DNA of 64,000 bases from Candidatus Chlorohelix allophototropha (GTDB lineage Bacteria; Chloroflexota; Chloroflexia; Chloroheliales; Chloroheliaceae), in contig NZ_CP128399.1 of the NCBI RefSeq assembly GCF_030389965.1, positions 1,116,001-1,180,000 on the forward strand, written 5' to 3'. Below are positions 6,255 through 47,100 of this stretch, in pieces. Numbering within the stretch: the stretch's first letter is position 1; the number at the start of each line of letters is the position of its first letter. The notes beneath the pieces are model-generated. The model did no database searches. It was not told the origin of the DNA and saw nothing but the letters and a program-made list of their open reading frames with translations. The position numbers and the translations under genes were made by a program.

Positions 6255-6291
6255 CTGTTTGGTCAAGTAAGATAATAATAAGGTGAGAACA

Positions 6292-6894
6292 TTGGCATTA
6301 CCAAGCATTGGGGCAAAAGCTCCCGATTTTCAATTACCTACTCCGGATGGCTCATTAATACGCCTTTCAGATTACCAACAACCGCAGCTAATATGCTTTA
6401 TGCGGCACTTGGCTTGAATGCCTTGAGCGGAACATCTGGTGCAGTTGCATCAGCCTAATTTTATACAGCAATTGGCTAACCTGAAGGCACGCTTACTGGT
6501 GATTTCTTTCGCCCCACCTGAGCATTTCCACAAATGGCTGGATTATTGGAAACAGATTCACCTTGCCCCCGAACTTGCAGGGAAAAAAACGCCTGAAAGC
6601 AACCAACTGTTACAGCAAACTGTCTTTCTCAGTGACCCACAACGAGAGGTATATCGCGCTTACAAACTAGGCAAATACTCAATGTTGACAGTGTATGGTC
6701 CTTCTGTGCTGGCGAAATATACCTTATATGCTGCACAGGGCAAGAAAATTCTCAAAACCCGTGAGGATGTATTGCAGAAGGGCGGAGATTTTGTGGTGAG
6801 CGCAGAAGGTAAAATTACCTTTGCCCATAGCGGACGCAACCAACTTGATCGACCGCACTCCCAAATTCTGCTTGATTCGCTGCTTCGCGCCTAA
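6292..6894 (+). CDS. Probable selenoprotein, SelL-like AhpC/TSA_2 redox protein (UxxU)
   Basis: The frame runs from TTG at 6292 (AGGTGA at 6281-6286, 5 nt upstream) to TAA at 6892-6894, interrupted only by TGA at 6415-6417 and 6424-6426. The first part reads LPSIGAKAPDFQLPTPDGS...LICFMRHLA, the standard N-terminal half of a thioredoxin-fold peroxiredoxin-like protein. Family members continue RH-x-x-C-x-x-C, and both cysteine positions are UGA here, giving U42-M-P-U45. The second part continues without loss (AEHLVQL, FLSDPQREVYRAYKLGK, GGDFVVSAEGKITFAHSG, DRPHSQILLDSLL), as in AhpC-TSA_2 proteins. If both UGA are read as selenocysteine the product is 200 residues. UxxU with a diselenide is known from selenoprotein L. 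The alternative, a pseudogene with two nonsense mutations exactly at the two catalytic cysteines and nowhere else, is much less likely. Confidence 0.8.
6436..6453 (+). promoter_or_regulatory. Candidate bacterial SECIS hairpin
   Basis: CTGGTGC (6436-6442) can pair with GCATCAG (6447-6453), with one G-U pair, around an AGTT loop (6443-6446). The loop starts 16 nt after the second UGA and 25 nt after the first. Bacterial SECIS loops normally lie about 16-37 nt from the UGA, inside the coding region, with a G (often GU) in a small apical loop. Both features are present. The fold was judged by eye only. Confidence 0.5.
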
Positions 6895-26399: not shown

Positions 26400-26870
26400 A
26401 TGAGCGTTGAAATTACAGAAAAAGAGCAAAATCCTGCCGATGCGCCGCAAGTTCCGACAAACCCTTATTATTACCAACCTGCTTACCAGTATCCAACTAA
26501 TTACTGGCAGCAATACCAGTCAATGCGCACCAGTTCCATTAGAACTGTAAATATATTGTTCTGGGTTTTCTATGCATTGGTTGGGTTCTGGGTAGATTTT
26601 AGTATTGCTGTATCCCTCTGGACGGTTGCGCTAATATTACCATTCACACTGCCAATTGCGCTGGTACTACGAACCTTTAACAACCAAGATTACTCAATTT
26701 ACATTAACGGGGTCTATTATAACAATCTAACCGATGCACAGTATTATACCGCTGCGGGGATTATTACAGCGATAGGTATCATGATCTTGATAGGAGCAGT
26801 AATGACCATAAAGCCAATGTTGAAATTGCATCGCATCCTCTTCCGCGATTTGGGCGGTTTGAAAATCTGA
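26400..26870 (+). CDS. Membrane protein with two to three TM helices, unknown
   Basis: 156 residues, preceded by a good ribosome binding site (GAAAGGAA) 8 nt before the ATG. A Pro/Tyr/Gln-rich N-terminal tail (PTNPYYYQPAYQYPTNYWQQY) is followed by hydrophobic segments at about 52-72, 74-95 and 119-139. A short basic C-terminal tail (KLHRILFRDLGG) ends it. Such Y/P/Q tails are common in small bacterial membrane proteins of unknown role. Closed by a terminator, so it is a single-gene unit. Confidence 0.78.
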   Translation: MSVEITEKEQNPADAPQVPTNPYYYQPAYQYPTNYWQQYQSMRTSSIRTVNILFWVFYALVGFWVDFSIAVSLWTVALILPFTLPIALVLRTFNNQDYSIYINGVYYNNLTDAQYYTAAGIITAIGIMILIGAVMTIKPMLKLHRILFRDLGGLKI

Positions 26871-26893
26871 TTAACTCTTACTTATCCATATTC

Positions 26894-26923
26894 AGCGTCC
26901 GGAATTGCTCCTGACGCTTTTTT
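26894..26923 (+). terminator. Terminator after the Y/P/Q-tail membrane protein
   Basis: AGCGTC (26894-26899) pairs with GACGCT (26913-26918), with an inner GGA/TCC pair, followed by a run of six T. Confidence 0.85.
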
Positions 26924-26983
26924 CATGCAATACAGGGCTTTTAATTATAGTCGTAAGAGGAAACTTTAGTATGATAAAATAAT

Positions 26984-27070
26984 ATGAAGCTGTTTTTGAA
27001 TCCGGTGAATGAAGATGTAGTATTCATACAGAATGAAATGGAAGCAAATGGCATTAAGTGTCTTGCTTGA
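26984..27070 (+). CDS. Possible 28-residue ORF, maybe a DUF2007-like remnant
   Basis: ATG 26984 to TGA 27068-27070 encodes MKLFLNPVNEDVVFIQNEM..., resembling the first third of DUF2007 proteins (a strand, then a helix with E.L...GI.C). It stops early and is in the same frame as the glycosyltransferase that starts 22 nt later. It is either a leader ORF, a decayed gene or chance. Confidence 0.25.
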   Translation: MKLFLNPVNEDVVFIQNEMEANGIKCLA

Positions 27071-27091
27071 AACCTCGATGGTTATCTCCAA

Positions 27092-28342
27092 ATGCTCTCA
27101 GTAAATACTAGATTTAGTGAGAGTTTCAAGAAAAGATTTAGCTTTGCACTTTTAGGCTTAACTTTATTTCTCTGCCTATTCTTTCTCTTTCAAATTTTAC
27201 TGATTCTTATACAAAAAAAAGCAATATTCGCTATAGATTTCAAAGTATATTGGGCGAGCGGAAAAGCTATACATGATAATTTCAGTCCTTATGGGGCTAA
27301 TCTGTTGCAATTTAGCGAAGCACAATTCCTGTATCCCCCTCTTTTTGCTATCCTAATGGTTCCCTTTTCTTTACTACCATTCGAAATTGCAGGAATAATT
27401 TGGTTAATATTATCTCTCTGCCTGTTAGGAGCGATTTGTGTTTTTATTATTAAGTTGGTGGGTTATCCAAAAACGATTTTTACAAATACAAAAACAGTAA
27501 CCTTAATACTGCTAGGAATTTCAACGCTACTCTACCCGGTATTTTCCGCCATCAAATTAGGTCAGATTAGTACCCTCATATTCTTTTTGATTGTTGCAGC
27601 GTTACTGGCACAATATCGAAACAAGCCTATATTGGGTGGTTTGCTTTTAGGATTGGCTATTTCATTAAAAATCACACCGCTTCCTCTACTTATTTTTGCA
27701 TTTTGGGTAGGATGGTATCACCTAGGAATCACAGCCAGCCTGACCTTTTTTGGAACACAAATAGTATCGGCTATATATAATCCCTCTATATTTTTCGAGT
27801 ATTGGTTCAGTGTGTTTCCCAAAATTGCCTCTATAACTGGTGGTGTCAGCCTATCTCTTCAAGGATTAGTGACACAATTAGCGCCATCACAACTATTATT
27901 TCTACTTGTACCAGTAACAATAATAATATCAGCTATAATAATTCTTATACCTTTTAGCCTTGTATTCTCAAAACACGATCCTCAAATAGTATTACAAGGG
28001 TTTGTATTACTATTATGCGGTCTTGGAATAGGACTACCTACCGTAGAAGATCATTATTTAATTTGGCTTATATTACCAAACTGGATGATTCTTAATTATT
28101 TAATCCAGAAAAATGCTTTGGGCAAAATCGTGCTTTTTCTACTAACCATTATTTTGCTCGCATGGAAGCCTTACGAACTAGGCGGAATAATTACAGGAAT
28201 TAGCGGTACCGCACAGGAGCAAGCTATAAATAACAGGCTGGTAATTGGGCGAGTAATACTTGAGATTGTATCATTTTGGTTTTATATTATTTTTATTCGT
28301 AATTTGGTAGTGCCGCCTACCAACGTGAAAACAGTACCTTAA
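27092..28342 (+). CDS. GT87-like polytopic glycosyltransferase
   Basis: 416 residues, about ten TM helices. The first outer loop reads FAIDFKVYWASGKAIHDNFSPYG, carrying the DF..YW.A...L....PY motif with the catalytic Asp of the GT-C family GT87 (DUF2029). It is followed by LYPPLFAILMVPF, and KLGQISTLIFFLIVAALLA and LKITPLPLLIFA are also typical. Members use polyprenyl-phosphate sugars, typically mannose, on the outer membrane face. The acceptor is unknown. The ORF is AT-richer than its neighbours, as is usual for polytopic proteins. No clear ribosome binding site; the start could lie a few codons further in. Confidence 0.85.
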   Translation: MLSVNTRFSESFKKRFSFALLGLTLFLCLFFLFQILLILIQKKAIFAIDFKVYWASGKAIHDNFSPYGANLLQFSEAQFLYPPLFAILMVPFSLLPFEIAGIIWLILSLCLLGAICVFIIKLVGYPKTIFTNTKTVTLILLGISTLLYPVFSAIKLGQISTLIFFLIVAALLAQYRNKPILGGLLLGLAISLKITPLPLLIFAFWVGWYHLGITASLTFFGTQIVSAIYNPSIFFEYWFSVFPKIASITGGVSLSLQGLVTQLAPSQLLFLLVPVTIIISAIIILIPFSLVFSKHDPQIVLQGFVLLLCGLGIGLPTVEDHYLIWLILPNWMILNYLIQKNALGKIVLFLLTIILLAWKPYELGGIITGISGTAQEQAINNRLVIGRVILEIVSFWFYIIFIRNLVVPPTNVKTVP

Positions 28343-43101: not shown

Positions 43102-46100
43102 ATGAAGTTCCTTTTTATGCTGGCTGAAGACAGTATGCTGGGTGCTGTAGAGCAGGGCGCAGCGGCTGTTCAGCGTAAACATGGCATAAAAATTGAAATC
43201 AAGTTTTGGACAGCACGCATGCTGAAGGAAGGTTCAACCAACTGGAACCAGTTTGAACAAGATTTGAAGGAATGCGATCTATTTCTAGCGAGTATGATTA
43301 GCGCAGATACCCAGCAAGTCTATACGCTTGAAAGATTGCTCAAGACTTATGGGCCAGTGCGACGTGATCGCGCCATTATCGTTCTGAACTCAATGCCTAA
43401 CCTCATGGCTTTGACACGTATGGGTGATTTTGAGTTCACTAATTTCCTACAGTTTATGAAAAACGGCCCGGTAGGCAAAATTTCAGGCTTCGTAGGTGGT
43501 ATTCGCAAACTGATGAAGCATGATGATGGTAAAGAGGTTGAGCCAGACTTTGACCCTGATGAGGTACGCGGCAGACAGAAGTTACGCCATCATAAGCCAG
43601 CTAAAAAAGGTGTGGTCTCTGGTATGATGGGAGTTCTGCGCCACCTACCCACTGTTCTCAAGCTAGTTCCGGGTCAGGCGCAAGACCTACGCGCTTATCT
43701 GGTTATTATGCTTTACTGGCTGAACAGTTCGCCAGAAAATTATGAAGAATTTTTCAAATATGTGATTGACCGCTATATGCCTTCTTATACCGGACCGAAG
43801 CTGAAGGCAAAAGACCCGGCTATTTACCCGCAACTGGCTTTGTTCCACCCAGATGCGCCCGGCAAATATTTTCAGACTCGCGAAGAGTATGAAAAGTGGC
43901 TAGCTAAAGCCCGACCTCAATCGGTTGGTCGCCCTCGTGTAGGCTTACTGACCATGCAAGGCTCGTACATGTCCGGCAACTATAAGCACATATACGAATT
44001 GATACGCCAACTCGATGCCGAAGGGGTCGAGTCGATGCCCTGCTTTGTAGGCGGTCTAGATTATCGCCCCGCCGTAGAAACTTTCTATCTGGACGAAGAT
44101 AAGAAAGGTAATATCAAACCTGTAATTGATCTACTTATCAATACAGTGGGATTCTCAATGGTCGGTAGTATGGCAGGAGCCGACCCAGAAGCGGGTATAG
44201 CCGAGCTTAAACGCCTGAACCGCCCTTACTGGTCTATTATGCCTTTGATCTATCAGAACGAGGCAGAATGGCGCAGCAGCCGCACCGGTCTTAGCCCCTT
44301 GCAGACTGCGTTTATGGTTGCAGTTCCTGAACTGGACGGTGCCTCTGAACCGCGGGTTTATGCTGCAACCGGGCAACTTGCCAATGATAAAACAATTCAG
44401 GCTTTACCAGCCGAAACTCGCCGCGTAGTGGGGCGAGCGGCACGCTATGTCAAGCTACGAAACAAGCCGAACCGTGACAAGAAAATTTCGGTGGTATTGT
44501 TCTGCTATCCGCCTAATAAAGGCGCAATCGGCACAGCAGCTTATCTGGGAGTATTTGAGAGCCTTTACCGCATTATGAAACGGTTAAAATCCGAAGGCTA
44601 TAATGTGGAAGTGCCACAAGATTCGGATGATTTGCGGAAACAACTGACGGATGGTAACTCAGCGGTTTATGGTACAACCGCTAATGTGCATACTCATATG
44701 CCTGTTACCGAATATATGAAGCTATTCCCAGATTATGTAGAACTGGAACAATACTGGGGCAGCCCTCCCGGTCATATGCTCAACGATTCGGAAGGCTTCC
44801 AGATATTAGGCAAGCAGTTTGGTAATTTGCTGGTGGCGATTCAACCCACCTTTGGTTACGAAGATGACCCGTTGCGCCTGCTGATGGCAGAAAACGTGGG
44901 TACTAACCATGCCTTTGCCGCTTTCTACACTTGGTTGAACAAAGTCTATAAAGCGGATGCAGCCTTACACTTCGGGACTCACGGTGCGTTGGAATTTATG
45001 CCGGGTAAACAGGTGGGTTTGACCGCTAAATGCTGGCCCGATCGCTTGATCGGTGATATTCCGAACTTTTACTTGTATTGTGTCAATAACCCCTCGGAAG
45101 GCACAATCGCCAAGCGTCGCAGCTATGCAACCCTCATCAGCTATCTATCGCCCCCGATGGAGAATGCGGGGTTGTATCGCCAGCTTTCACAGCTAAAAGA
45201 TGTCATCAATCAGTATCGCAACAAGCTGAATGAGGGCGGTGATGGCGCATTACTCGAATCTATTATAGAGCAGGCTCAAGCGCTCGAACTGAAAGTAAAG
45301 GTTACGCCAGAGCAAGGGATTGAGACCTATTTGCTGGAGCTATACGCCGCTTTGCTTGAAATCGAAGAACGCCTGATACCTACCGGCTTGCATTTACTGG
45401 ACGAATTACCGGATGAAGCTTTCCTGCATGATGTGTTGAATTCGGTTGGTAGTTTCTCACGCGGCAAACCCGGTAGCAATGAAGAAATACCTGCCCTTAC
45501 CGAATTGGTAGCGGAAGGCTTCGGCTACAATCTTGACGATGTCCGCAAAAATGCTACCCGCGATTCTGAAACAATGGGAAAGTGGGAAAATATCGAGCGG
45601 TCACAGCGTGAATCGGTACGGATTTTCGTGGAGAACTGGCAAAAAGGTAACAAAGAAGCAGCCCGCAACGATGCTGTACAATACCTGCGTACGGTTGCAA
45701 AGGTTGATCCAAAGCGCAGTACGCCGATGATGGAATATCTTTCCGAAGTGGCGGAGGGGATGTATATCCAGAATGAGATAAACCAAATCGTGCGCGCTTT
45801 CAATGCCGAGTATATCGAACCTAGTCCCGGCAGCAACATAGTACAAAACCCGGCGGTTCTGCCTACCGGACGTAACATTCATGCGGTTGACCCTGCGCTC
45901 ATCCCTTCGCCTTTAGCCCGCCGCAACGCTGAACGCAGCGTAAAAGCAATAGTGGAGAAGGCACGCCAAGAGATGGAGCTACCGGAAGGGCAGTATCCTG
46001 AAACCATCGCGATGGTATTGTGGGGTACAGACAATATTAAGACCGATGGTGAAGGCATCGCTCAGTGTCTAGCTATGGTTGGGGCACGCGCCATCAGCGA

Positions 46101-47100
46101 TGGCTTGGGCAAGATGACCGATGTTAAATTGCTGCCACTTTCAGATTTGAATCGCCCACGTCTTGATGTGGTAGTGACGGTTAGCGGTATTTTCCGCGAT
46201 TTGTTGCCACTACATATGGGATTAATTGACCGCGCTGTTCGCTTGGCTGCTCAGGCAGATGAATCTGAAGAGCAAAACTTTATCAAGAAGCATGTGCGGG
46301 TTGAAATGGAAAAAGGCGCAACCTTCGATGAAGCCGTTACGCGCGTCTTTAGCAATGCACCCGGACAATATGGTGCGAGCGTTAACTCAATGATAGATAA
46401 TAGTGTATGGCAGGACGATAACGAGCTTAGTGATGCTTTCCTCAGTCGCAAGAGCTTTGCCTACGGTATTAAAGCCGATGGTGAGGGTGCGCGCAAGCTA
46501 ATGGAAAGCGCCTTGAGCAAAGTTGATTTGAGTTTCCAGAACGTGGACAGCGCCGAAGTGGGTATTACTGATGTTGATCACTACTATGAATATTTGGGAG
46601 GTATCAGCAAATCAGTTGAGAAACTAACGGGTCGAAGGGCTACCACCTTAGTTGCGGATAGCCTATCTGCCAGTAGTTCAAGCCTCTCTCAAGGTAACAG
46701 TATCAAGACTTTGCAAGAGGCAGTACGACTCGAATCGCGTACCAAGTTACTCAACCCCAAGTGGTACGAAAGCATGCTTAAATATGGCTTCGAAGGGGTG
46801 CGCGAAATCGAGGTAAGAGTCAGCAACACTTATGGTTGGAGCGCTACCAATGATGCGGTTGATAAGTGGGTCTATGACGGTGTCAACGAGACTTTTGTCC
46901 AAGATGAGGAAATGCGCGACAGGTTAGCCGAACTAAACCCCCATAGCCTTAAAGGTATTGTGGGACGGTTGCTTGAAGCAAATGGACGCGGTTTCTGGGA
47001 AGCAGACGCCTCTATGATTGAGAAGTTAAAGGAAATTTTTGCAGGTCTTGAAGATGAGATTGAAGGAGTTGGCGAACCGAATTTGATAGCCCGCAAGTGA
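43102..47100 (+). CDS. bchH: Magnesium chelatase subunit H (BchH)
   Basis: 1332 residues. It binds protoporphyrin IX and inserts Mg2+ together with BchI and BchD, the first committed step to bacteriochlorophyll. The N-terminal DUF3479 region (KFLFMLAEDSMLGAVEQGA...) separates BchH from the cobaltochelatase CobN. HFGTHGALEFMPGKQVGL carries the conserved His and Glu, and the CobN/Mg-chelatase core includes MVLWGTDNIKTDGEGIAQ, VVVTVSGIFRDLLPLHMGLIDRAV and the final YGWSATNDAVDKWVYDG. GGGAG supports the start. Phototrophs with chlorosomes often carry several H paralogues (BchH, BchS, BchT); which this is cannot be told. No bchD or bchI adjoins it. A strong terminator follows. Confidence 0.95.
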   Translation: MKFLFMLAEDSMLGAVEQGAAAVQRKHGIKIEIKFWTARMLKEGSTNWNQFEQDLKECDLFLASMISADTQQVYTLERLLKTYGPVRRDRAIIVLNSMPNLMALTRMGDFEFTNFLQFMKNGPVGKISGFVGGIRKLMKHDDGKEVEPDFDPDEVRGRQKLRHHKPAKKGVVSGMMGVLRHLPTVLKLVPGQAQDLRAYLVIMLYWLNSSPENYEEFFKYVIDRYMPSYTGPKLKAKDPAIYPQLALFHPDAPGKYFQTREEYEKWLAKARPQSVGRPRVGLLTMQGSYMSGNYKHIYELIRQLDAEGVESMPCFVGGLDYRPAVETFYLDEDKKGNIKPVIDLLINTVGFSMVGSMAGADPEAGIAELKRLNRPYWSIMPLIYQNEAEWRSSRTGLSPLQTAFMVAVPELDGASEPRVYAATGQLANDKTIQALPAETRRVVGRAARYVKLRNKPNRDKKISVVLFCYPPNKGAIGTAAYLGVFESLYRIMKRLKSEGYNVEVPQDSDDLRKQLTDGNSAVYGTTANVHTHMPVTEYMKLFPDYVELEQYWGSPPGHMLNDSEGFQILGKQFGNLLVAIQPTFGYEDDPLRLLMAENVGTNHAFAAFYTWLNKVYKADAALHFGTHGALEFMPGKQVGLTAKCWPDRLIGDIPNFYLYCVNNPSEGTIAKRRSYATLISYLSPPMENAGLYRQLSQLKDVINQYRNKLNEGGDGALLESIIEQAQALELKVKVTPEQGIETYLLELYAALLEIEERLIPTGLHLLDELPDEAFLHDVLNSVGSFSRGKPGSNEEIPALTELVAEGFGYNLDDVRKNATRDSETMGKWENIERSQRESVRIFVENWQKGNKEAARNDAVQYLRTVAKVDPKRSTPMMEYLSEVAEGMYIQNEINQIVRAFNAEYIEPSPGSNIVQNPAVLPTGRNIHAVDPALIPSPLARRNAERSVKAIVEKARQEMELPEGQYPETIAMVLWGTDNIKTDGEGIAQCLAMVGARAISDGLGKMTDVKLLPLSDLNRPRLDVVVTVSGIFRDLLPLHMGLIDRAVRLAAQADESEEQNFIKKHVRVEMEKGATFDEAVTRVFSNAPGQYGASVNSMIDNSVWQDDNELSDAFLSRKSFAYGIKADGEGARKLMESALSKVDLSFQNVDSAEVGITDVDHYYEYLGGISKSVEKLTGRRATTLVADSLSASSSSLSQGNSIKTLQEAVRLESRTKLLNPKWYESMLKYGFEGVREIEVRVSNTYGWSATNDAVDKWVYDGVNETFVQDEEMRDRLAELNPHSLKGIVGRLLEANGRGFWEADASMIEKLKEIFAGLEDEIEGVGEPNLIARK

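Follow-up and report, generated by a model that had tools for sequence, protein, structure and literature searches.

Fish, invertebrates, and marine bacteria are the reported sources of selenoprotein L (SelL), for which a diselenide has also been described (PMC2397514); in the animal protein, both selenocysteines (Sec, U) are inserted with one SECIS (PMC3316567). Marine metagenomes contain UxxU sequences of the Prx-like 2 family (PMC2398784), and Prx-like thiol:disulfide oxidoreductases with UxxC or UxxU motifs are catalogued among prokaryotic selenoproteins in two selenoproteome reviews, neither of which mentions the Chloroflexota (PMC9312934, PMC13188914). A first-pass annotation of the locus described here had proposed a SelL-like UxxU protein that would widen this family. 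The claim of novelty was too strong, because prokaryotic UxxU Prx-like proteins are already catalogued and an NCBI model for SelL-related proteins exists. Its account of SelL as a UxxU protein with a diselenide agrees with the literature, but the limitation to animals does not, given the occurrence in marine bacteria (PMC2397514). What looks new is the distribution, with seven UxxU genes among many UxxC genes and a second Sec that appears to have been repeatedly gained or lost.

The host, 'Candidatus Chlorohelix allophototropha' L227-S17, is an anoxygenic phototroph from fresh water that has a type I reaction centre and is cultured in a medium containing selenite; its replicons comprise two chromosomes (2.96 and 2.45 Mb), a chromid (375 kb), and two plasmids (PMC10972752). 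The genome analyzed here has 6,086,194 bases in five contigs, and the window (the whole 64,000-nucleotide stretch of DNA under analysis) lies on contig 1. The predicted protein resembles SelL in its UxxU motif with Sec residues two residues apart, its Prx/Trx-like character, the putative use of one SECIS for two UGAs, and its bacterial occurrence. It differs in its freshwater, phototrophic Chloroflexota host and in its SECIS, a bacterial in-frame hairpin right after the UGAs; the diselenide is a prediction here, and the likeness was drawn from motif, fold, and family model. The repertoire of a type I reaction-centre phototroph of the Chloroflexota would thereby gain a two-selenium redox protein.

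Gene structure and in-frame TGA codons

Translated conceptually with TGA as Sec, the gene (Table 1) is one frame of 200 residues with exactly two in-frame TGA codons, nine bases apart. This reproduces the first-pass annotation, which had described a single frame broken only by these codons at the redox CxxC positions, and the motifs that it listed around them (RHLA, AEHLVQL, GGDFV, and DRP) are all intact. In the homologues, the columns of U42 and U45 hold only C or U; among 28 aligned relatives, R38 is the only other invariant column. Two start codons are available, the TTG at 6292 and an alternative in-frame GTG at 6283.

Table 1 Features of the SelL-related locus (positions within the window).
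Feature	Position	Strand	Remarks
Likely ribosome-binding site AAGGTGAG	6280..6287	+	Read from sequence; precedes TTG 6292
SelL-related selenoprotein gene, 200 aa	6292..6894	+	TTG start, TAA stop; predicted active site U42-M-P-U45 (UMPU)
First predicted Sec codon UGA (U42)	6415..6417	+	N-terminal redox-motif position; U in every Sec-containing relative examined
Second predicted Sec codon UGA (U45)	6424..6426	+	Position of the peroxidatic Cys in peroxiredoxins; U or C in relatives
Putative bacterial SECIS hairpin CTGGTGC-AGTT-GCATCAG	6436..6453	+	7 bp, AGUU loop, -8.5 kcal/mol
Stop codon TAA	6892..6894	+	

Under the standard code, the ORF list retains only a 151-aa remainder of the gene (6439–6894), and initiation at its GTG (6439) would yield a product without the active site, which counts against the two-Sec reading. 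The same remainder and the two standard-code stops in frame would also fit a pseudogene or a sequencing error, with the gene being an AhpC/TSA-like one of the Cys type that shows two nonsense mutations. We regard this explanation as extremely improbable: both stops are TGA, they lie exactly on the redox positions, and the 200 codons contain no other lesion. Moreover, TGA also occurs at these codons in relatives, the downstream hairpin covaries, the Sec machinery is complete, and the closed genome combines short and long reads (PMC10972752). For two stops to fall on both catalytic positions by chance in 200 codons, the odds are about 1 in 20,000 from placement alone; together with the relatives that carry TGA at the same codons, this makes a chance origin unlikely. 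The gene therefore very probably encodes a genuine two-selenocysteine protein, with Sec predicted at both codons from sequence evidence, and a gene model broken under the standard genetic code is now corrected.

General recoding of TGA was ruled out because this codon terminates 6 of the 37 long ORFs in the window, including one of 1332 aa (43102–47100), in keeping with the normal stop usage seen in the first pass. Within the window, no further convincing TGA-interrupted gene was found. Another ORF (2265–2720), located 3.6 kb upstream, encodes a Cys-type peroxiredoxin that is Bcp/PrxQ-like, judging by its translation. Comparison of gene neighbourhoods across the family revealed no common partner; an upstream ORF, ABC-type ATPase-like in translation, recurs within one genus only (L022 and L074).

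Selenocysteine machinery of the genome

The UxxU motif had been taken in the first-pass annotation to imply a full Sec system, and a search of the genome recovered all four components. These are tRNA-Sec (selC; 72.2 bits, gathering score 47, anticodon TCA), selA (473.2 bits), selB (367.6 bits, cut-off 242), and selD (360.6 bits), the last 2.2 kb from tRNA-Sec and with an in-frame TGA of its own in AACAGUASK. The selD product (G000:C1:719866–720813; L019) is itself a predicted selenoprotein, and about 32–33 nt downstream of its UGA is the AGUU-type loop of a hairpin. Neither of the two formate-dehydrogenase-like genes of this genome (G000:C2:1233788–1235941 and C2:327361–329388; L087 and L088) contains an in-frame TGA, so that SelD and the SelL-related protein are the two selenoproteins found, a minimum for the genome. 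A paralogue of the broad family in the same genome (G000:C1:47709–48236; L002) has CPFC and carries neither TGA nor hairpin. Scanning genome contigs with single-protein patterns returned only weak Prx relatives.

Family affiliation and predicted fold

The protein matches the NCBIfam model NF040769 ("SelL-related redox protein") at 124.5 bits (E = 3.3e-36), barely past the curated cut-off of 120 for a family that mixes UxxU, UxxC, and CxxC members, which bears out the annotation of a SelL-like UxxU protein in a phototrophic Chloroflexota. This model matches all 28 aligned members and has matches above the cut-off in 31 of 400 Chloroflexota genomes. Further matches were to PF00578 (AhpC-TSA; 48.1 bits) and PF13911 (AhpC-TSA_2; 33.6 bits, Pfam gathering cut-off 27). 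A confident AlphaFold2 model (pLDDT 93.2, pTM 0.90) predicts a peroxiredoxin fold in which both Sec sit where the first long helix begins; this would combine the UxxU motif with the Prx/Trx-like fold of SelL. The best structural matches of the model are the peroxiredoxins AhpE and Bcp (Z 18–20), and human prostamide/PGF synthase matches with Z 17.3 and an rmsd of 2.6 over 155 residues (VIA-align, 9usa).

SelU corresponds to PRXL2 proteins, and the locus may alternatively encode a genuine selenoprotein of a bacterial PRXL2/SelU type that is no SelL relative, with a UxxU independent of that in animal SelL. The PF13911 match would agree with such an origin, as would the changes of the UxxU state, at least three inside the Chloroflexota. 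Human prostamide/PGF synthase (9us9), a PRXL2/PF13911 protein, shares the peroxiredoxin-like fold, a CxxC in the same place, and the GDxxQxGG motif, and among five solved relatives compared residue by residue it is the sole near-full-profile, single-stretch match; it has Cys for Sec, however, and only 18% identity. Because the curated NF040769 cut-off is passed and the same model matches 28 of 28 aligned members, we hold this alternative to be possible but somewhat doubtful, and a SelL-related assignment is retained. The prokaryotic Prx-like thiol:disulfide oxidoreductases are similar in their PF00578 domain, UxxC/UxxU motifs, and one to two Sec per protein, but are listed under a different reference protein (PMC13188914, PMC9312934).

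Proposed redox mechanism

Profile alignment places U45 at the peroxidatic Cys and U42 at the Thr/Ser of the classical peroxiredoxin motif PxxxTxxC, in which Arg (R38) replaces Pro, so that the protein has RxxxUxxU in place of that motif. This makes a classical peroxiredoxin mechanism unlikely, and the substitution favours an oxidoreductase over classical peroxidase chemistry. Each of the more than 30 Sec members has U at the first redox position, whereas the second is either U or C; this pattern suggests that the first position is the nucleophile. By analogy with SelL and from this constant first U, a CxxC-type exchange fits better. The product would be a soluble, single-domain SelL-related protein of the peroxiredoxin/thioredoxin fold, in which the selenolate of U42, located N-terminally in the first helix, would attack and U45 would resolve. 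The two would form a diselenide that a cellular thiol or the thioredoxin system may re-reduce, and the protein would act as a thiol/selenol oxidoreductase or a peroxide-reducing redox enzyme. We infer the incorporation at both codons, the diselenide, the residue roles, and the reaction.

A conserved putative SECIS hairpin downstream of both UGAs

Counted to the start of the hairpin loop, the spacing is 25 nt for the first UGA and 16 nt for the second. Bacterial SECIS elements have a published spacing of 16–37 nt (PMC13188914), and the hairpin fits every published bacterial criterion for both UGAs, with the second at the lower limit. Across 22 Sec-containing relatives, 87% of the stem cells are paired and six of the seven pairs show two-sided changes, with a covariation score of 0.593 (shuffled: 0.226; slid: at most 0.18). 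The hairpin is not kept in 13 Cys-containing relatives (53% paired, covariation score 0.278), and the paired positions differ between Sec and Cys members at p = 2e-5. In a synonymous-recoding control, the window gene alone gave a modest P = 0.019; the combined values were 5e-10 over the Sec members versus 0.91 over the Cys members, both inflated by relatedness. When a broad 91-nt region spanning the site was folded, its minimum free energy was unremarkable (z = 0.28), and an Rfam search of 6300–6600 returned no match; the signal is a local hairpin, visible only by targeted folding and covariation. This single hairpin would serve as the SECIS for both codons, and Sec-tRNA-Sec and SelB would decode both UGAs.

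Its spacing at the bottom of the published range may make Sec insertion at the second UGA inefficient. Conceivably, only the first UGA is efficiently read as Sec and the second leads mostly to termination or another amino acid, with a working product being rare or UxxU being a transient state of UxxC. The canonical distance from the first UGA, the greater frequency of UxxC among relatives, and the scatter of UxxU on the tree are consistent with this. On the other hand, the seven UxxU genes belong to at least three lineages and stay open in frame past the second UGA, a distance of 16 nt is within the published range (PMC13188914), and animal SelL receives both Sec with one SECIS (PMC3316567). 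We consider efficient decoding of the first UGA alone unlikely and retain two selenocysteines as the preferred reading. The reach of a bacterial SECIS could readily be studied in this family, where UxxU and UxxC relatives occur naturally with one hairpin.

Apparent switching between one and two selenocysteines

Active sites among the relatives are UxxU, UxxC, or CxxC, and UxxC is commoner than UxxU. The seven UxxU genes of the Chloroflexota are the window gene (UMPU), L022, L077, and L078 (all UHYU), L049 and L062 (both ULHU), and L079 (UHFU). The nearest relative, L070, from another genus of the same family, has UVYC, and the window protein clusters with L070 and the L022 group (100/99 support). 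Unrelated frameshifts or stops in close relatives had been named in the first pass as grounds for doubt; TGA was found only at the redox positions, the one exception to intact frames lying at a 3' end. This is L023/L076 (G152:C16, near 26784–27302; UHYC), in which the frame leaves the family near the 3' end and DRP is lost, a possible frameshift or decay.

The selB gene is present in 16 of 18 tested genomes with Sec-type genes, and the two without it are 86% (G217) and 77% (G329) complete. G217, which carries the UxxU gene L049, is split into about 1040 contigs, and the missing selB is probably an assembly gap. Many genomes with Cys-type members also carry selB, so its presence alone fails to separate Sec-type from Cys-type genomes.

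On the tree, the well-supported branches require no fewer than three shifts between UxxU and UxxC. Codon changes of the TGC/TGA type, upstream of the same hairpin, appear to account for these gains or losses of the second Sec. On balance, we lean towards a SECIS that truly directs both Sec insertions and reaches both codons, such that a single TGC/TGT-to-TGA change would switch the enzyme between its one- and two-selenium forms in either direction, as would have occurred at least three times. Species of a single genus differ at the second redox codon, which is TGA in L022 and TGC in L073–L075, the hairpin being identical or near-identical. The proteins of these UHYU/UHYC pairs are about 80% identical, and they provide a test of what the second selenium gives the enzyme.
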